A stretch of DNA of 64,000 nucleotides from assembly GCA_037903475.1 (NCBI GenBank), contig JBAJFG010000041.1:1550001-1614000 (forward strand), written 5' to 3'. The notes below the pieces were generated by a model. It had not been told where the DNA came from. It made no database searches and saw nothing but the letters and a program-made list of their open reading frames with translations. How positions within the stretch are numbered: position 1 is the first letter of the stretch; the number at the start of each line of letters is the position of its first letter. Source of the DNA: Ancylostoma caninum. Taxonomy: Eukaryota > Nematoda > Chromadorea > Rhabditida > Ancylostomatidae. Of the stretch, positions 6,440 through 25,150 are shown piece after piece. Position numbers and translations under genes: made by a program.

Positions 6440-6967
6440 AGGATAAAGAGGGACGGACGATAGGTGTGCCAGGGGCGAATAGTGACAGATACCGTGATGT
6501 CGATGGAGAAGGGGTTGTACTGTGACTCAACGTTGCGGAAAAGCCAGTATACGGGTTCGCAGATGGAGGAGGGGTCTGACATGGCCCAGGTGGGAGAAAT
6601 GCCAGAATAGGGGTTCACCGAAGACCGATGGGTCTGTGGTGGCCAAACAGTGAGTGAATGACAGGAAACGGTCATGCCGATGGAACAGAGGTCCGCTGTG
6701 GCCCAGGTGTGAGGCACACCAGCATTCTGGTAAACTGGAGGGAGGATGGCCTGCCGTGCCCTGAAAGTCGAGGGAATGCCAGCATTCGGGTCTAACGAAG
6801 GGGGTCTTCTGGGGCCTGAAAGTTAAGAGAACTCCAAGATACGGGTACGCAGATGGAGGAGGGGGTGCGTTGTGGTCTGAGAATGTGGGGAACGCCACGA
6901 TACGGGTTCGCTGGCATAGGAGAGGTCCGCTGTGCCACTGGTGAGAGGAACGCCAGAATATGGGTCT
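6440..6967. repeat. 58-bp minisatellite, left part
   Basis: Degenerate units of about 58 bp run in tandem, each with a GCCAGAATACGGGTTCGC core followed by AGATGGAGGAGGGGTCCGC and GGCCCAGGTGTGAG. About nine units can be followed. The period is not a multiple of three, so the long open frames across it are unlikely to be coding. The array is cut by a transposon at 6968 and resumes at 8333. Confidence 0.8.
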
Positions 6968-12526: not shown

Positions 12527-14706
12527 TTAACACATTGACGACAATTAACGTTTTCGCTGTGAGTGCCACGTGGGACCAAGACTAATTCTACCTTTATTTC
12601 TGAATTTGTCTTACCGGAACATAGTCACATGAGACGCAGATCACGAATATGACATACATTTTCTACCGTAACCCATATTTGTAGGGCTACGGTAGGTATA
12701 CTGTAGAAAACCAAATCTCTCAGAATTCTTTGAAATTTTGCACACGGGGATTATTTCGTGTGCAGACCACGAATGTGACATTCATTTCCAGCGCAGAGTG
12801 TGAGTGATGCAGCTGTTTTGCTTTTGAACGTCCTACACTGGATTTACAGTGACAATTTATTAAGGAAATTGACAGCGTGATTACATCCCACACCTTTTGT
12901 GTTCCTTCTGGAAGCACTCTATGCAGTAGTGTTTCTGACATCTATTACATCTGGTGTGCACTTTCCTAGCATGGATTTTGGCGTAATACGATCCTTCCTT
13001 CCTAGACAGTTTTTGATAACAGCCGGCACATCTTTTTCTTGACAAAGCCTTGCCGTCGCGCACTTCCTCGAGCAGATGTTTGGGAGCTAAAATGGGTTGT
13101 CGTTTGCTGTCCAACAGTGACTCAATTACCTCCATCTTGAACTCGTTAGACTTCATCTTCTGCACATTATCGTGGTACAACCTCCATGAGTTCACTAATG
13201 AGGTCTGAGTGAGCAGATGGAAGAACAATCGCAGGTACCATTTCGACGTCTTCCTTAAAAATGGCGTATAAGAGGCCATTTGATCAGATATATCTACAAA
13301 AAGCTTTGCTTTATTGTAGTCTTCCACGACTTTGGGCTTTCCTTGACCAGCTCTCGAGTCATCGTGCGTGGTTGACAGCATCAGAACGTCTCTTCTATCA
13401 CGCCATTTGAGCACCGTTACTCCTCGTCTGTTCTGTTGGGCAACCATGGCTCCTCGCGTCAGTTTCCTTGTGGTGACAACCTTCGGTAACCGCTTTCTGT
13501 TCTTCCCAACGGTTCCAATCAGATGAGTTTTCCTTTTCAGCAACTGCTCTGCAAGCGGTACACTTGTTTAATAGTTGTCAGTAAAAAGACGTCTGCCCTG
13601 ATCTAGCAGGCTATCCATTAGGTCTAGAACAACGGATTCAGCTATGCTCCCGGTTCTCGTAACGTCTTTACCAGCATAAACTCGGGTTTTGTAGGTGTAT
13701 CCTCCCCTGCAGCAGAGCTTGAAAAGCTTGATCCCATAGCGGTGCCTCTTATTTGGAATGTATTGTTTGAAAACAATGCGACCTCGAAAGGGAATTAGGG
13801 ACTCGTCTATACAGAGGTCCTTGCCGGGGTGATACACGCGCTGGCATGCTTCATTGAGGAGATCTAAATACGGTCTTATCTTGTAAAGTCTGTCCTTTCC
13901 ATCAAAGGAGGAATTGTCGTTGAGGTGGAGGTTTGCTAACAACTTTTCGGACCTATTTCTGGGCATCACTTTTGCACCTATTGGGTGGCCACCATAGACC
14001 GATCTGTTGCTCCAATAATCTCTCAGAGAGGGGAGGCGAATAATTCCCATTTGCAGACAAAGTCCAATGAATTTTCTTATCTCTACTTTGTCGGTATCCT
14101 CCCAACTTCTTGGGGTAATATCTGTTTATATGTGTGTACGTATGTTCCGGATAGAAATCGCAGAAGATTTATCGATCAAGACCAGACTTTGCAGACGTAT
14201 TTCCCGTAAGCCGGCGGATGTTTTGCTGCTTTTGTCTAAAACTATAGATTGGTTTATCGATTTATCGACTTTATTGAATTTTCAACATTTTTGCTCAAGG
14301 GTCGATGAGGACATGTCTAATGGGGCATCTCAATACCCTACGCGTTTTTCATTCGTTTTCCTACAGTATACCTACCGTAACCTGCGGAACAAGGGTTACG
14401 GTACAAAATGGTTATTATTTTCGTAATCAGCATGTAAAATAAGCTACCTGTGCAAAGTTTCAGCAGTTTCTGAAAGATTCGTTTTTCTACAGTATACCTA
14501 CCGTAACCTGCGGAACAAGGGCTACGGTACAAAACGGTGGTCATATTCAAGTTCATCACGTGAAATTACCCACCTACGCAAACTTTCACGGGATTCGGAT
14601 TTGGAGAACCCCATTTTTGACGTGGGACCCACCGGTGGGTCCCTTGGTCCCTGGTGGCCGCCAGAGTGGGACCCACCGGTGGGTCCCATTGTCGTCAACG
14701 TGTTAA
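12527..14706 (-). mobile_element. piggyBac family transposon with TTAA duplication
   Basis: The left end is TTAACACATTGACGACAAT and the right end (reverse complement) is TTAACACGTTGACGACAAT, 18 of 19 identical. TTAA lies at 12527-12530 and 14703-14706. The element between is 2172 bp. Near the right end is a duplicated palindrome built on ACCCACCGGTGGGT. The transposase is on the minus strand. The LTR sequence continues on both sides, so the insertion is younger than the LTR. Confidence 0.92.
12881..14125 (-). pseudogene. piggyBac transposase (one nonsense codon, N-terminus missing)
   Basis: The minus-strand frame is open from 14125 to 12881 apart from one TAA at 13568-13570. The order of motifs is that of the DDE_Tnp_1_7 family: KFIGLCLQMGIIRLPSLRDY, then DLCIDESLIPFRG (first catalytic Asp), RLFTDNY (second Asp, directly before the stop), then FVDISDQMASY (third Asp region). 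It ends in a cysteine-rich zinc domain (CAGC...CNRCQKHYCIECF). The stop replaces the residue after DNY and the same frame resumes at once with TSVPLAEQ, so it looks like a single point mutation. Upstream of 14126 a stop codon ends the frame and the usual N-terminal region is not visible; it may be in another exon or lost. Confidence 0.85.
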
Positions 14707-14723
14707 ACTAGAAACTAAATAAA

Positions 14724-14805
14724 GGTTTAATTACCCAAGTTTGAGGTAATCCATCGAAACCGCGTGGCCGTGAAATATCACGTTTAGGCGAGCATTGTAC
14801 CCTCA
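14724..14805 (+). ncRNA. SL1 RNA-like segment in the 5' LTR
   Basis: 14724-14745 is identical to the 22-nt nematode SL1 (begins GGTTTAATTACC, ends AAGTTTGAG). It is followed by GTAA, which keeps a 5' splice site, then ATCGAAAC and a small hairpin (CGTGA-AATA-TCACG) and GGCGAGCATTGTACC, which resembles the body of SL1 RNA. The similarity stops at the LTR end, before an Sm-site-like sequence. Identity of SL1 is from established knowledge; its function here is inferred. Confidence 0.8.
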
Positions 14806-14810
14806 CTTTG

Positions 14811-14820
14811 TGGTGCATTG
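14811..14820 (+). promoter_or_regulatory. putative primer binding site (tRNA-Gly)
   Basis: TGGTGCATTG lies 5 nt after the LTR end. It matches the reverse complement of the 3' end of a tRNA-Gly with CCA (10 nt). The match does not continue further, so the site is either short or decayed. BEL/Pao elements often use tRNA-Gly. Confidence 0.5.
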
Positions 14821-15617
14821 TCTACTCGGACTCAAGCCGGTTAATCAATTTTACATGACTATTCCTATTTTTTTACACGGAGTCTAAAGTTCGTACAAGT
14901 TCGTCACAACGAAAGTTTCGCACCAAAGTTTTTGAACCTCACTCATTCTGGTGTATTCTCTGCTACATTCCTCGCAAGTCCTTTCATCATTCTTGACGCA
15001 AGTCATCACTCACTCCTGATTCCAGCTATCAAGAGCAAATCTTCACCAGAAATTGACATCTCCTTCACTCTGGTGCAGTCTTTCACCCATTCACAGCTCA
15101 AGTTACAAAAAACAGCTGCACACCTGAATTTTGAACTCCACTGTTCAGGTGCACTTTGGGCTTCAAGTTTACCGAAACAACAACATTTTGCGGGACAGAT
15201 CTCGCCTGATCAAGTGCACATCTTCACTATTCTTGAAACAAGGTCACTGAGAACAACAGCATCCCTGAGATTCTGAACCTCACTCGTTTAACTCACTCTG
15301 CACACTTTCATCTGATCTTGTCTCAAGTTCATCAAGAGTAACAGCACACCTGAGACTTGACTACTCACTCGTCCAGGTGCATTCTCCCACTCAGTCTTAA
15401 TTCAAGTATATCGATAACAACGAAACACCAAATTCTTCATACCTCGCTTGTTTAGGGGTACATTTCATTGGCATACGTTTATTACGAGTCTACTGGCCAA
15501 AAATTAACTTGAATTTCACCAACACCATCGTCACAGCTGACTCCTCAAGTTAGTTCCATCCCCATTGATACGACTTTTTTCAAGTTAACAAAAAAATCAA
15601 AAATCATTTTGACTACC
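14821..15617 (+). other. retroelement leader with degenerate repeats
   Basis: This is the untranslated leader between the LTR and gag. It shows degenerate ~80-bp repeats with motifs such as CCTCACTC, GTTCAGGTGCA, ATCAAGAG and AACAGCACACCTGAGA (14930-15390). A pyrimidine tract ending TTTTTTCAAG (near 15582) could be a splice acceptor ahead of the gag ATG at 15618. Confidence 0.5.
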
Positions 15618-16543
15618 ATGTCAGTACAACTTATTACCCCGAAACGATTGTTAACTCACTACTCGAAAAAATTAGAGACAGCTTCAGTAGAAGGGGAAAC
15701 AACTTTTTCCGCTAAAGAAAGTCTTCACAGACTTAATGAGAGTATAGCCGCCACAGAAAAAATAGAGCAGCTACTTCAGGAATTTGCTTCTGGTTATGCA
15801 GAATTAAAAAATTCAAGCCAAAAAGATATAGAAGATTCTGACGAGTACTCAAAAAAGGCAGAAATTGCCATCACGACGGCCTTCGATTATTCATTATTGC
15901 TCAAAGCCTTTGAATCAAGTGATTTAAATCAAGTGATTGCGTGGGGCAATCACTTGATTTAAATCACTTGATTCAAAGGCTGGCGTACAGTCTGGCACGA
16001 TGCATACCGGACGAGTTAACGCCCGCATCCCAATTTCATGTGAAAAAACTTGAGCTGCCCACTCTCCCCGTACCCACATTTCGGGTAAATCTCTGGGGAT
16101 GGGATAATTTCTGAGAATTATGTAATGAAAATGTTCACACTCAAAATATACCCGACTTATGCAAGTTCAATTACCTGCTCAACGCCCTTAAAGGAGAGGC
16201 ATTAGAATTCGTGAAGAAATTCCAAGTAACCAAGGACAATTATTTAAAAGCCGTAGAGTCTCTTCAACACAAGTGTGGAAACTCAGAGCAACTTATCGCT
16301 CATCTCATCGATAGGCTCGATAAATGCAAGTTACGTTCAACATCCACACGTGATCAACGCGCATTATTTGAGCAACTTCAAGTCATTATAGCGCAACTGA
16401 AGCAGAAAGGAGAAGAAGTGGACAGCCAATGGTTGTACAGGCAACTACTGTCCAAATTCCCAGAACCAGTACAACGCAAGGTGCTCAAGAAAAAAACAAG
16501 GACTCTCCCCAGAAAATCCGTTCACTGTAGAAGTACTCCTTAA
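15618..16543 (+). pseudogene. BEL/Pao gag remnant (DUF1759-like)
   Basis: The first frame (15618-15962, MSVQLITPKRLL...) is an N-terminal coiled-coil-type gag region. It is broken by a perfect hairpin (15905-15981). The core with ELPTLPVPTF and LNALKGEALEF follows in other frames, and 16211-16543 encodes a helical segment typical of Pao-type gag (DUF1759). At least two frameshifts and a stop near 16110 break it. Confidence 0.7.
15905..15981. repeat. perfect 36-bp inverted repeat inside gag
   Basis: 15905-15940 is the exact reverse complement of 15946-15981, with a 5-nt loop (GTGGG). It shifts the gag frame. The right arm looks like an inverted duplication of the left. Confidence 0.9.
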
Positions 16544-16616: not shown

Positions 16617-16770
16617 GCAAGTCAACGCCAGGACAAGAGACAAGGATGGATATAGCGCATCCTTCACTATTACCTGAAGGTACTGCAGAGGACACCACAA
16701 AGCAATCGAGTGTACTCGATACAAATCTTCACAAGAAAGGTCCCAGCATCTACGTGACCACAAGTGGACA
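16617..16770 (+). pseudogene. gag zinc-knuckle remnant
   Basis: In one frame this encodes CRGHHKAIECTRY followed by SSQERSQHLRDHK, the Cys/His finger usually found between the gag core and the protease in nematode Pao-type elements. The frame is interrupted by stops on both sides. Confidence 0.55.
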
Positions 16771-17222
16771 CAACTGTGAAAAACACGCAACCTAAGAAGG
16801 TCACGCCAACCATCCTGACGAAGAAACCCCTGACAAATCAGCACACACCGAAGAACACCCGACCCACGAAAGTAACAAAAGTAAATCTACTCGGTGAAGA
16901 CTCCACCATACCGGACGAAAACACCACCCTGGAACTTCATTCCCCAAACAACCAGGAAAACTGCTCCCGCACATTCCTTCCAACAGGGGAGTTAACAGTA
17001 GTTGACCCAAAAACGAACCAGGCAATGAAGTTATCGGCTCTGTTCGACACAGGGGCCAAAATTTCACTCATCGACACTACACTTGCAGATGAGTTAGAAC
17101 TTCCGACACTTGAAACAACAACGCTTCGTTTACACACCTTTGGATCAGGTAGAATTCGCGCAAGCAAGTGCAGCATGGGATTCAGAGGGACAATCATTTT
17201 CTCTCCAACTATTTACCCATGA
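16764..17222 (+). pseudogene. retropepsin-like protease remnant (DUF1758-like)
   Basis: The open frame of 152 codons has a Lys/Thr/Pro-rich N-terminal half followed by LSALFDTGAKISLI, the D-T-G active-site motif of Pao-type aspartic proteases, and then LADELELPTLET. It ends at a stop codon at 17220-17222; the sequence after it is in other frames. Confidence 0.75.
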
Positions 17223-18006: not shown

Positions 18007-18905
18007 ATGAAATTTCTGATCCCCAAATGCTACAACTGCATACGTCGAAAAAATCGCACAAGGAGATACTCGGCCGACCTAATCGAACTTCTCGCAGTTG
18101 CCGTAACAGTTCTAGCAATATCAACCTCTATTCAAGGATGTCAGCAGATTAATTTGTCCTCTCACAAGTCTACCATTTGTACCAATTCTGAAGGAACTGA
18201 AGTCTGAAATCCATATCTCAGAAATCCTAGAAATCAATCCATTCAAAAGGAAAGCGTGCTTTAAATTACACCGCAATGGAACCACAGTCCATGAGCTACG
18301 CGCATCATGGATAGCACTGGTACTTTTATGTGTGACGAAAACTAAAACTTTTACTAGAGATACTACCTATCAAGTTGTAGATAGTAAAAGGTGTCCCCAC
18401 ACTGGCTCTTGACTGGCTCTTGTGTAGGAGAAAAATGCGCAGCCCCACAAGCAAAATTCCAGAATTGGACAGGGGAAATCATTACCCGGGCATCACATCT
18501 TGCTCGGAATCATGCGGTGGCGTTGGATGTGATTGCTTCTATTGGAGTTCAGGATGCCTTTTCTATCGCATCTATGCAACACCTACATCATCCCAAGTCT
18601 ACGGAATATTTCACTGTAATCGTTGGACAGAAGCAGCTAAGATTGAATTCACTCAAGTGGACACTGCACAAGGAAGAAAACACTCCTTTACCGCTCACAT
18701 GATCCCAAACATTCCGATCAACTGGAAGTCCTTCACATTCACTTTAAGTTCAACCACGGTTCCACCCAATCCATTTCTCAACCCAGCCTTCATCACGGAT
18801 GGCAGGGCGCAGCACTATGTGGTCATTGACCACCAGGACCTAGTAACGTCCTGCAGATTCAGGGGGCTTAGCACCAAATTCCGGGGCGTAGCCAACCGCT
18901 GACCG
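18007..18905 (+). pseudogene. env-like glycoprotein, first part (Phlebovirus-type fusion protein family)
   Basis: This part starts with a basic segment and a hydrophobic stretch (about codons 22-44 of the frame at 18007), followed by Cys-rich segments spread over several frames. The frame 18420-18902 has a dense cysteine cluster (C-x3-C-G-G-V-G-C-x-C type) like that of the class II fusion glycoproteins that nematode BEL/Pao elements acquired from phlebovirus-like viruses. Stop codons and an 11-bp duplication near 18405 break it. It is a dead copy and is annotated only as a remnant. Confidence 0.6.
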
Positions 18906-20550: not shown

Positions 20551-20797
20551 TATAGGGTAATTTATACTGGATGCGTGCGTCTGACGCGTGCGCGTGCGTC
20601 TATGTGATGAAGAATAGGTCCCAGTCTCATAGCAGTCGCGTCGCAGTCGCAGCTCAGACGCACGCGTTTGCGGCCGCGCGTTCTTTTCATTGAAGATGTA
20701 CATGCCGTGTTGACCGGTCTTCATGGAAAATCCCGTGCAAATGGATGCGTGCGAAAATGCGCTACTGACGCCCGCAGCTAGTATAAATCACCTTTAT
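20551..20797. mobile_element. 250-bp TA-MITE, copy 1
   Basis: The 5' end is TATAGGGTAATTTATAC and the 3' end is GTATAAATCACC, the latter decayed. The interior (GATGCGTGCG, CAGACGCACGCGTTT, GTTCTTTTCATTGA, GACCGGTCTTCATGGAAAAT) matches the copies at 39147-39394 and 54237-54490. Confidence 0.8.
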
Positions 20798-20912
20798 AAA
20801 AACCAAGCATTCAATCCCAAGTACTCCCACAAACCACCATTTACTCAAATCAACAATTGGCAACACAAATTTTACCGTAAAATCCATTTTATGCATGTTT
20901 ACTTAACATATG

Positions 20913-20922
20913 CTCATTTCAG
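20913..20922 (+). promoter_or_regulatory. splice acceptor directly before the extra ORF
   Basis: CTCATTTCAG ends 1 nt before the ATG at 20924. An acceptor this close to a start codon is typical of a nematode SL-addition site, or of an acceptor used by the SL1-like donor in the element's own 5' LTR. Confidence 0.6.
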
Positions 20923-22312: not shown

Positions 22313-22599
22313 TGTCGCTTTAAAAGTTTCTCAAAACTTCAGAAATAATTCAAGGATTTTTGATAATTTATCACTGAACCACTCTCATCGTTTTTAGCAA
22401 GTGGCCTTCTTTTCATCTCTACTCAAGTTATCACTCACTTAACCACATAATTCACTTGACTCATCACTTAAAGTTGTTGTGTAATTATTTTCCTTGTTCA
22501 CCTAGCTGTTAGTTTCGCTTAACCCCAGTTAATGGTATCTCGTACTTAAAGGCAGCAGGAGGTGAAATTCTCGACTCTGAGCTGAGCCGCGGGTGGCAA
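22313..22599 (+). repeat. truncated LTR copy plus half foldback
   Basis: After the purine stretch GGGTGGAAA (22304-22312) an LTR start (TGTCG) joins directly to an inner LTR segment. 22318-22549 matches 22989-23221, and 22550-22597 is the left half of the foldback at 23222-23703. The period between the two copies is 671 bp. Confidence 0.75.
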
Positions 22600-23221
22600 T
22601 GTCGACTCAATTTTTCAATTCCGTTTTCTTCATTAAGCCACTAACTCAAATATTTTAATGGTCTCCGTCAGGCACTGAGGACTGAAGCGGCAATCGCACT
22701 TTCCCAGACAACATCGTGTTTATCGCGGCATTCCATCTCTGCGAGAAGCTGCGACATTTGCTAGGAACAGAAATGTATAAAGAGCACTGTGCTCCATATG
22801 GCATCGATCAACGAGTACAGGTTGGGACAGTCTTCAAATCTCCTTTCACTTCACCCACTGCTCCAATCTTTACTTCTCTAGGTTTGTATCACGTTTCAGG
22901 GAATTGTGGTTCTTGTATACTCATTCTCTGCTCTTGACTCTTCCTTCCCTTTACCAATAACAAGTGATTCCCGTCTATTCTGTTTTTCGCTTTAATAGTT
23001 TCTCAAAACTTCAGAAATAATTCAAGGATTTTTGATAATTTATCACTGAACCACTCTCATCGTTTTCAGCAAGTGGCCTTCTTTTCATCTCTACTCAAGT
23101 TATCACTCACTTAACCACATAATTCACTTGACTCATCACTTAAAGTTGTTGTGTAATTATTTTTCTTGTTCACCTAGCCGTTAGTTTCACTTAACCCCAG
23201 TTAATGGTATCTCGTACTTAA

Positions 23222-23703
23222 AGGCAGCAGGAGCTAAAATTCTCGACTCTGAGCTGAGCCGCGGGTGTGAAGTACGGACTCAGCACATCATAAATGTGAA
23301 ACGAACACAGACAATGATGGCTCACCTGCAGAGAAAATGGAACATTCGTCCAGAACACGCCTGGCGGTGTTCGTGCGCGGACGAGTTTTTCCCTGCGCGA
23401 AAGCCATTGCGGCGCGTGGTTTTGGCCGAGTCCCGCCATGAAACCCTGTGAATTGAATGCATTTCGTTTTCCCTTTGCGCCAAACCACGCAATGGCTTTT
23501 GCGCTGTGTAAAACTCGTCCGCGCGCGAACACAGCCAGGCGTGTTCGCGACGAATGTTCCATTTTCTCTACAGGTAAGCCATCATTGTCTGTGTTCGTTT
23601 CACATTTATGATGTGCTAAGTCTGTACTTCATCACCCACAGCTCAGCTCGGAATCGAGGATTTCAGCTCCTGCTGCCTTTTGCCTTTTCAGCCCCTGCTG
23701 CCT
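23222..23703. mobile_element. 480-bp foldback element in the 3' LTR
   Basis: The ends are AGGCAGCAGGAGCTAAAATT and, in reverse complement, AGGCAGCAGGAGCTGAAATC. The arms of about 220 bp are nearly complementary along the whole element (for example 23275-23345 with 23560-23640). It is flanked by TTAA on the left (23218-23221) and TTTA on the right. It occupies the same LTR position that the piggyBac element hit in the other LTR. Confidence 0.8.
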
Positions 23704-23717
23704 TTTAGATAAATGAA

Positions 23718-23799
23718 GGTTTAATTACCCAAGTTTGAGGTAATCTATCGAAACCACGTGGCCATGAAATATCACGTTTTGGCGAGCACTGTACCCCCA
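23718..23799 (+). ncRNA. SL1 RNA-like segment in the 3' LTR
   Basis: 23718-23739 is again an exact SL1 22-mer, followed by GTAA and the same SL-RNA-like body. Over the next 60 nt the two LTRs differ at 6 positions, whereas the 22-mers are identical. Confidence 0.8.
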
Positions 23800-25150
23800 C
23801 TTTACGTCATACCACCTATGCCGTGGCCCTCTGCCTGCGAGTCCGCATATTCCTTCGACAACGTCGTTCTCATTCTCGATCAGTTCTGTGATGTGGCGCG
23901 TTTTAGCAGTTTTGAAACACTAAAGTTTCTTATGTATTTGCTGTTTCGTTTTGGGCGAAATCAGTGGTATGTCATTAGAGGAAGTCTCCATTGATTTTTA
24001 ACGTTTTAGCCGTCTTACTTTCGTCACAGATCTGATATGTTTTTGCGGTCTTTTTCTTTTTAGAAAAACTGCCCGTATATGTCGGGTTTACGGCTCAATT
24101 CTCATGATGACATGACGTCATTCTGTTCAGGAAAGCTCTTCATTGGAACGCGTGAACAACTATTGATAACCCTCGGCTGCGGACACATGCATGTCTTCCT
24201 ACAGGCTATCACCGCAACTACCACTTATTTTGTATCTTCTTAACGTTCTGCCTTCTCAAATTCCTTCAACAAGTTTAGTGTCCGTGCAGAAATCATGGAG
24301 CTGATGGCCCAAGTCGATGGAGTGCGGGCTGCGACCGACTCGAGCCCTATAGCTTATAATTCCTTCATCGAACTGATCCCGGTCCGGCTCTATTCAGTTG
24401 GCGCGAATGGCCTGTCCGAAGTTTTAATCCATTTTTGTTTTCGTAATAACTTTATTCAGGTTATTTGGTGAAATATATATAACAGTCGTTGCTAGGGCCA
24501 TATGCTATGGGCCATTTTTGAGGCCTTCCGATTCTCTTTTCCCAGAGTAACAGGTTTGAGGAGTCAAAGAACATGGCAACTCCTAATTTGACACACCAGA
24601 ATTTACAAATTGTTTGAACGATAAGGTAACAATTGGGCAGATCAAATAATACTTGGAGTGGGCGTGGCCTGGTGAGAGAGTAGGGCTAGCGTGATAATAG
24701 CGGTTTCCTAGTCCCGATTGATGGAATAGGTGGGCTAGTGAGGGATTTCCCGTCTTGGCCATTTTTCTTCGACAGCATTCCAAAATGTCAATGGACCGAT
24801 CCTACTCTGATGGTAGTCATGATAGTCCGGAAAATACCTGAAAGTAATGTCATCTCAAACGACAACATTCTCTTTATTTCGCCTTGTCAAATTGGGTCAT
24901 TGGTTGCTCCCGGAAGTTCATATCTCCAGATTCGAGACGAGTGGAACAGCAGAGCTATGCAGAATGTTGGGCAATACTCTCCTTGATCTAGTAGTGATGC
25001 TAACCTTAATGCTCATCAAGATGCTGCTCAGCAGGACGGAAGATAGAAGTTGTGGGAAGTACCATTACAAATTTGGAGCACTGCATGAGCAGAAATTCAT
25101 CGTGGTCTTTATATAACAGTAGCTTATTAGCTCATGAATTATACTCTGAT
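23800..25150. other. intergenic region after the retroelement
   Basis: Only short frames without recognised domains (for example 23758-23994 and 24738-24986). No clear repeat ends. Confidence 0.35.

Follow-up and report, generated by a model that had tools for sequence, protein, structure and literature searches.

SL1 spliced leader sequences with a putative splice donor in Bel/Pao LTRs of a strongylid nematode genome

Results and discussion

A decayed Bel/Pao provirus with SL1 in both LTR remnants

The window analyzed here, a 64-kb stretch of DNA (C81:1550001-1614000), contains the remains of a provirus between two 94-nt repeats in the same orientation (Table 1). The broken gag encodes a DUF1759 domain, which we take to be characteristic of Bel/Pao-type Gag proteins, and it is followed by a piece of a protease gene and by env pieces. 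Among the ten ORF pieces scanned, the protease was found and no match to reverse transcriptase, RNase H or integrase was obtained; the env piece had no relative in the viral contig collection. The ORF pieces further downstream are perhaps from another, nested element. Most relatives come from strongylids, including Ancylostoma, Necator, Parelaphostrongylus, Heligmosomoides, Cooperia and Angiostrongylus, and inspection by eye did not reveal a target-site duplication for the element. The best explanation for the two repeats is that they are LTR remnants of a decayed Bel/Pao provirus of a strongylid nematode, which has kept pieces of gag, protease and a phlebovirus-type env. Two ORFs on the minus strand (12881-14125) appear by eye to encode a piggyBac-type transposase.

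Table 1. Features of the provirus and its flanking repeats, numbered from the first base of the window
Feature	Position	Strand	Basis or remark
Left 94-nt repeat, downstream part of 5' LTR (poly(A)-signal hexamer, SL1, U5)	14716..14809	+	87/94 identical to 23710-23803; layout matched to L012 and L033 LTRs
AATAAA immediately 5' of SL1	14718..14723	+	AATGAA in right copy
SL1 22-mer, left copy, exact host sequence	14724..14745	+	Same 22-mer in the likely host SL1 RNA gene array L075
Splice-donor-like GTAATC, left copy	14746..14751	+	
U5 motif CGCGTGGC-hairpin-GGCGAGC	about 14761..14793	+	Near-complement of the tRNA-Gly(GCC) anticodon arm, interrupted by a hairpin
Primer-binding site remnant TGGTGCAT (tRNA-Gly)	14811..14818	+	Exact 8-nt run to tRNA-Gly complement; 7 mismatches in first 18
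Broken gag (DUF1759), in pieces	15618..16543	+	Pfam DUF1759 E 7.2e-21 at 16115-16543; Ancylostoma duodenale relative 60%
Retroviral-type aspartyl protease piece	16758..17222	+	Pfam Asp_protease_2 4e-6
Env pieces, phlebovirus G2-type fusion glycoprotein	18116..18902	+	Pfam PF07245 8e-14, 3.9e-41; strongylid relatives
ORF pieces akin to the ORF after gag in L012	20924..22397	+	Repeats around at 20554-20800, 22315-23680
Right 94-nt repeat, downstream part of 3' LTR	23710..23803	+	
SL1 22-mer, right copy, exact	23718..23739	+	
Splice-donor-like GTAATC, right copy	23740..23745	+	

The right end of the repeat is an LTR end and adjoins the primer-binding site at 14811; the base after 14809 is a G, followed by TGGTGCATTG at the position of this site. 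Members of the Belpaoviridae have a tRNA-Gly or tRNA-Arg primer site and LTRs of 0.2-1.2 kb (ICTV profile, PMC8742986). The window element has a tRNA-Gly site of which 8 nt are preserved, and four other loci (L059, L060, L062, L071) match tRNA-Gly at 17 of 18 positions. With 94 nt the window repeat falls below the LTR range. A blind sample of the same assembly (200 kb, plus 50 kb that are mostly neighbours) provided a related element, L012, with LTRs of about 253 nt. Its first LTR starts with TG at 6641 and carries TATATAAGG at 6757, AATAAA at 6798, CCCGCGTGGC at 6843 and the primer site at 6894; the second, incomplete at its end, runs from 9318, after a purine-rich tract. SL1 was not found in the L012 element, whose LTR diverges right after its AATAAA, at the SL1 position. 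By this layout, the 94 nt in the window correspond to the stretch of the LTR that runs from AATAAA to its end. Since L012 has about 253 nt, and ten other LTR pairs of SL1-bearing elements are alike for at least 60 nt 5' of SL1, the window LTRs look truncated. U3 is absent from both copies, which are cut at the same point and each adjoin a different repeat, one ending at about 14707 and the other at 23633-23680 (boundaries 14707/14716 and 23680/23710). The first-pass annotation had the similarity end at the LTR border, which is correct on the right side and not on the left, where it ends in mid-LTR. The only SL1-like LTR in the 200-kb blind sample (L005) has 2 mismatches to SL1 and GTAG after it; the LTR end initially assigned to L005 was rejected, as its sequence context (context E, see below) extends further in L079.

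Both repeats contain the intact SL1 22-mer, as the first-pass annotation had reported, and it was also right about the GTAA that follows, which is part of GTAAT and precedes a hairpin and GGCGAGC. No further SL1 match with up to 3 mismatches was found in the 64-kb window besides these two (mean of 100 shuffles, 0.00). Comparison of the two copies gave seven differences in 94 nt (14721, 14752, 14762, 14770, 14786, 14795 and 14803 in left-copy numbering), one of them 5' of SL1, six 3' of it and none within it. The earlier count of six downstream differences was therefore accurate. The constraint on SL1 that had been read from it was rejected, since a clean 22-nt stretch is expected by chance with P = 0.14 and a difference-free run as long as the longest one occurs in 47% of shuffles (P = 0.47).

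SL1 followed by GT recurs across the assembly

In the window's own assembly (347,937,819 bases), SL1 with up to 2 mismatches was found at 1026 places (504 + 522) in 348 Mb, exact SL1 followed by GT at 326 (170 + 156) and SL1 followed by GTAA at 29, with 0 matches in each control (for SL1 itself, the reversed pattern); the SL1 and SL1+GT totals include multi-copy families. GT follows directly in 70 of the first 100 exact copies listed, compared with about 6 expected by chance, a figure weighted by multi-copy repeats that include a foldback one. Neither the viral contig collection nor the genome contig collection had any match to the SL1 22-mer (0 each). The SL2 leader of H. contortus (query sequence from PMC7652881) was found with up to 2 mismatches at 19 places (8 + 11), 14 of which are in C63 and C590. 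According to the accessible part of the same source, SL2 is used by 5.8% of H. contortus genes and SL1 by 37.4%.

A sample selected by SL1 only, with the following bases disregarded, comprised 20 of the first 27 exact 22-mers, near neighbours and two known loci being left out. Eight of the 20 have CGCGTGGC (1 mismatch allowed) downstream, the mark of a Bel/Pao LTR; five of these, all of the same context (B), have GT directly after SL1, and the other three have GT after a 6-nt repeat (L035), CT (L038) and GA (L049). Another six are free of the mark and of GT and resemble copied mRNA or unique sequence (L036, L037, L045, L047, L051, L054). In L037, exact SL1 is followed by a reading frame for ATP synthase epsilon (Pfam E 5.5e-9), and some exact SL1 copies of this kind look like retrocopied trans-spliced mRNAs. 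Four of the 20 are in one foldback-like repeat with GTAC after SL1, and the remaining 2 are of other kinds. In this genome, SL1 with a donor dinucleotide is real and general in retroelement LTRs, occurring repeatedly and not as the oddity of a single element, as a leader-and-donor function predicts.

The foldback-like repeat carries SL1+GTAC in L041, L042, L046 and L052 and at C23:1379506-1380549, C8:2121525-2122566 and C39:1025207-1026254. Its SL1 copies are about 215 nt apart in one arm, with inverted copies about 0.6-1 kb away, so that SL1 points inward from both arms. Three loci (L035 and L118, both of context C, and L053) have the last 5-6 nt of SL1 doubled (TTTGAG or TTGAG) before GTAA.

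Loci from the SL1-only sample, the GTAA and GT lists and same-strand pairs were grouped into 16 sequence contexts of SL1, some of which look related (A and A'). Fourteen of them bear an LTR mark in the form of a primer site, a partner LTR or the U5 motif; context Q is without an LTR mark and context N has a partial one. The 22-nt flanks have a mean pairwise identity of 35% before SL1 and 33% after it across the 16 contexts. SL1 itself is identical in all of them because the contexts were collected by exact SL1 patterns. GT follows in 15 of the 16 contexts and in 13 of the 14 marked ones (F is the one without), many having been drawn from lists that required GT. The bases after SL1 vary among GTAAT, GTAAC, GTAGT, GTAGC, GTAAA, GTTAC, GTCTT, GTTTG, GTTTC, GTACC, GTTCA and GTGGT. 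A hexamer of the form AATAAA, TATAAA, GATAAA or AGTAAA ends 0-2 nt 5' of SL1 in 10 of the 16 contexts, and TATATAAA abuts SL1 immediately in contexts A' and C.

SL1 in LTRs found independently of SL1

A search with the anchor pattern CGCGTGGCN{8,38}GGCGAGC, in which SL1 is not part of the query, found 85 places (44 + 41; control 1 + 3). Of these, 59 were examined, 40 newly fetched and 19 from earlier steps, namely the window, 17 loci from the SL1 searches and L005 from the blind sample. Within 120 nt upstream, the best SL1 match had 0 mismatches at 20 sites, 1 at five, 2 at six and 3 at two. In total, 33 sites are at 0-3 mismatches, none at 4-8 and 26 at 9-13, where shuffles fall at 7-13. The 40 newly fetched sites divide into 2, 5, 5 and 2 with 0, 1, 2 and 3 mismatches, respectively, and 26 without SL1. 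The resulting 14 newly fetched SL1-bearing LTRs represent about five contexts and have GT directly after SL1 in 12 cases, the exceptions being L134, with GC, and L118, in which TTTGAG is repeated before GT.

Since 26 of the 40 newly fetched sites are without SL1, Bel/Pao elements in this genome can do without it; SL1 is a lineage character, present in some groups with the U5 motif and absent from others. The possibility that most family members lack SL1, raised by the first-pass annotation, is borne out to the extent that these 26 sites share the same U5 motif, but they belong to other sequence groups.

Age, decay and possible copying of SL1

Ten other LTR pairs were compared over 122 positions (60 before SL1, SL1 and 40 after it); eight pairs have no difference and two have one. 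Differing at 0-1 of 122 positions, the SL1-bearing elements have moved recently, and the window pair, with 7 differences in 94 nt, is older than these ten. Young LTR pairs lie in C198, C330, C70, C148, C160, C173 and C180 and at C4:4913684/4921905, C8:3181194/3191867 and C164:5993610/6005836. Within five contexts (22 comparisons), 22 of 484 SL1 positions had changed, compared with 34 of 880 in the 40 nt that follow, a count limited to copies with no more than 3 SL1 mismatches. Because SL1 decays like its downstream neighbourhood, as in dead copies, constraint on SL1 after insertion finds no support, and the suggestion that the 22-mer might be conserved among family copies was rejected. An upstream comparison (220 of 770) was ungapped and spoiled by shifts and was set aside.

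Neutral-looking decay within families would also be expected if SL1 were copied without function, either via trans-spliced element RNA or through template switching of the reverse transcriptase from SL RNA, and represented a repeatedly captured scar of an RNA 5' end. This explanation could account for the precise 5' boundary of SL1, which begins with its first base behind upstream sequences that differ between contexts, and for L012 and context E having common sequence up to ATAAA and again from AGTCCCGCGTGGCA and being different in between; the copies that resemble retrocopied trans-spliced mRNAs, such as L037, point in the same direction. However, GT is absent from trans-spliced RNA, in which SL1 is joined to the mRNA directly, but follows SL1 in both window copies and in 12 of the 14 LTRs found with the anchor. 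The bases after GT also vary by context and differ from the host GTATTTCATC, so that GT would have to be kept and the rest not, and SL2 has not spread comparably (19 places), although its use is also lower. We therefore regard copying without function as a rather unlikely account of these LTRs.

The sequence after SL1 and host SL1 RNA genes

The sequence after the donor had been described as resembling the body of SL1 RNA, and this likeness turned out to be weak. The Rfam SL1 model matches the window copy only at model positions 7-27 of 103, with 19 bits compared with a gathering score of 75, and the candidate interpretation as an SL RNA pseudogene was rejected on this basis. By comparison, the locus L075 (C183:259060-260360) contains four tandem genes with 306-318 nt spacing that match Rfam SL1 over positions 1-103; these score 38-44 bits (E 4e-6 to 9e-5), which likewise does not reach the gathering score, and likely represent a host SL1 RNA gene array. 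In the L075 genes, SL1 is followed by GTATTTCATC and later by AAATTTTG, and GCGAAATC is found upstream of SL1. When the window copies were aligned with these genes, 14 and 106 of 3000 shuffles were as good as the left copy (with and without GTA) and 47 and 55 as good as the right copy. With the C. elegans SL1 RNA, the corresponding numbers among 2000 shuffles for three cuts were 6, 17 and 38 (left) and 29, 302 and 126 (right). The first 15 nt or so after SL1 matched this reference at a level reached by 15 of 2214 null 11-mers. Neither copy yielded an Sm-like site in the 107 nt that start with SL1. The combination of exon, donor, stems, Sm site and full-length Rfam SL1 match that characterizes an SL1 RNA gene is not found in the window copies. 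The body in the window is not convincingly like host SL1 RNA and appears better explained as the U5 motif of Bel/Pao elements; CGCGTGGC...GGCGAGC occurs without upstream SL1 at 26 of the 59 anchor sites.

These comparisons also bear on the notion that an SL1 RNA gene or pseudogene was inserted by chance into a single ancestor and kept by inheritance only. The window copy on its own would fit such an event, as would the weak likeness of the first nucleotides after SL1 to the C. elegans sequence. Set against this are the mostly unrelated flanks in the 14 marked LTR contexts, with which one ancestral insertion fits poorly, the failure of Rfam to see an SL1 RNA body past position 27 and the presence of SL1+GT in the foldback-like repeat as well. 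A single insertion is accordingly very improbable.

A possible self-encoded leader

Spliced-leader trans-splicing affects a large share of nematode mRNAs, and its purpose is debated. For the elements described here, we propose, with a probability of about one in two, that SL1 exon and donor are both encoded in the LTR itself and that spliced element mRNAs mimic trans-spliced host mRNAs. The data show how the LTRs are built, that this arrangement recurs, that GT follows SL1 more often than by chance and that the elements moved recently; the start site, the use of the donor and the benefit to the element are what we infer. Most SL1-bearing LTRs have in common an SL1 exon and a donor dinucleotide at the presumed head of the transcribed part, for which a self-encoded leader would be the simplest use. 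The window provirus is one of a large set of Bel/Pao sequence groups in which SL1 often directly follows a poly(A)-signal-like hexamer and precedes U5 and the tRNA-Gly primer site. Transcription would begin with the first G of SL1 or close to it, and the genomic RNA would bring its own SL1 leader. The GT after SL1 could then serve as a donor for cis-splicing to downstream acceptors, for example one for env, and the spliced mRNA would have an SL1 5' end like that of trans-spliced host mRNAs. Downstream acceptors would thus be served by a donor on the same RNA and would not be left to the SL RNA. At the 3' end, the hexamer directly 5' of SL1 would place RNA cleavage within SL1, and the R region would for this reason largely consist of SL1.

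Acceptors at 15583, 18003 and 20923 had been suggested as partners of the window donor. Scored with a nematode matrix, the first two, the supposed acceptors for gag and env, are poor (0.5-2.2 and 0.7 bits, respectively), and the third, at 20922, scores well (9.2) but belongs to another ORF further along. Splicing is hard to judge from the window provirus because of its advanced decay. The idea that element mRNAs would share the host cap is unlikely, because SL RNA needs Sm assembly for its trimethyl cap and no Sm-like site was found within 107 nt from SL1 on. Two sequence features could place transcription starts elsewhere. If TATATAAA in contexts A' and C acts as a TATA box, the start would fall close to the SL1 end, and transcripts from the 5' LTR would not include the leader; in L012, the TATA-like TATATAAGG 41 nt before AATAAA would direct a start upstream of the SL1 position.

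An alternative is that SL1 is used as DNA, having been taken over from SL RNA genes as an initiator or other promoter element. The Ascaris SL sequence itself was reportedly found by Hannon and colleagues, about 1990, to be required for transcription of the SL RNA gene. SL1 often begins beside a TATA- or AATAAA-like hexamer, and the foldback-like repeat bears it in inward-facing arms, both of which would suit a promoter function. Such a function would not need GT, yet GT is present in 12 of the 14 LTRs found with the anchor and in 70 of the first 100 copies listed, and the GCGAAATC found upstream of SL1 in host SL1 RNA genes is not common to the LTRs. A role as promoter DNA is thus considered unlikely. 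The reading of SL1 and GT as leader and donor could extend beyond single families: many Bel/Pao families and the foldback-like DNA repeat may each have acquired or kept the host SL1 exon together with a 5' splice site where their transcripts begin. As a general strategy, this leader mimicry is put forward tentatively, at somewhat less than even odds.

Comparison with known systems

A precedent for SL1 beside Pao elements exists in Brugia malayi, in work by Foster and colleagues. According to the accessible part of that study (PMC7181701), 120 SL1 copies are located outside arrays, and 60 of these have a Pao element no more than 1 kb away, with two same-strand copies occasionally flanking one element; the authors explain this by trans-splicing of spliced leaders to element RNA followed by integration. 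Both genomes thus have exact or close SL1 copies outside SL RNA arrays and beside Pao-type elements. Unlike the copies described here, which are internal to LTRs and mostly followed by GT, the Brugia copies are not described in the accessible text of PMC7181701 as LTR-internal, as having a GT donor or as belonging to many families. As trans-splicing joins SL1 without GT, the GT after SL1 argues against the Brugia route for the present LTRs. Apart from this precedent, a search of the freely accessible literature gave no report of SL1 inside LTRs together with a donor.

Semotiviruses such as Tas of Ascaris share gag, protease, an env-like gene and the tRNA-Gly primer site with the elements found here, but an LTR with a host SL1 exon and donor is not mentioned in the ICTV profile (PMC8742986). 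Cer1 of C. elegans, a Ty3/gypsy element, also produces a spliced mRNA with SL1; according to the accessible part of PMC3315495, however, this SL1 is trans-spliced from host SL RNA and the 8-kb RNA is not trans-spliced at that site. In Echinococcus, a donor in transcripts of ta-TRIM solo LTRs similarly competes with the spliced leader for an ancestral trans-splice acceptor, although the accessible part of PMC4558846 does not state that the LTR contains leader sequence.

If the proposed self-encoded leader is real, SL1 would be worth something to an mRNA even without SL RNA, and questions about cap, translation and surveillance would become testable. Nematode retroelements would have an R region made of SL1 and a host-type leader obtained without SL RNA, and a self-encoded leader would offer an alternative account of the association of SL1 with Pao elements in Brugia. 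There is also a practical trap, as SL1 matches in such genomes include hundreds outside SL RNA genes.

The U5 motif and the primer tRNA

The two U5 halves CCCGCGTGGC and AGGCGAGC, when joined, form a contiguous complement of the tRNA-Gly(GCC) anticodon arm, save one base, with an ARAGORN prediction in L091 (CCCGCGTGGCAGGCGAAC) as the tRNA reference. The insert between them is mostly a stem whose letters vary from group to group: 42 distinct inserts have a mean stem of 5.5 compared with 3.7 in shuffled sequences, and at least 5 pairs are found in 33 of the 42, compared with 23% of shuffles. The U5 motif may represent an extended contact with the primer tRNA, as can be inferred from this complementarity. 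In L091, SL1 is followed by GTTCATTAAA and then by the whole tRNA-Gly(GCC) complement with CCA, as if a complete primer tRNA had been reverse-transcribed. A separate locus at a contig start (L002, C1:1-10000) contains 24 tandem tRNA genes, 23 of them tRNA-Arg(ACG), mostly about 225 nt apart.
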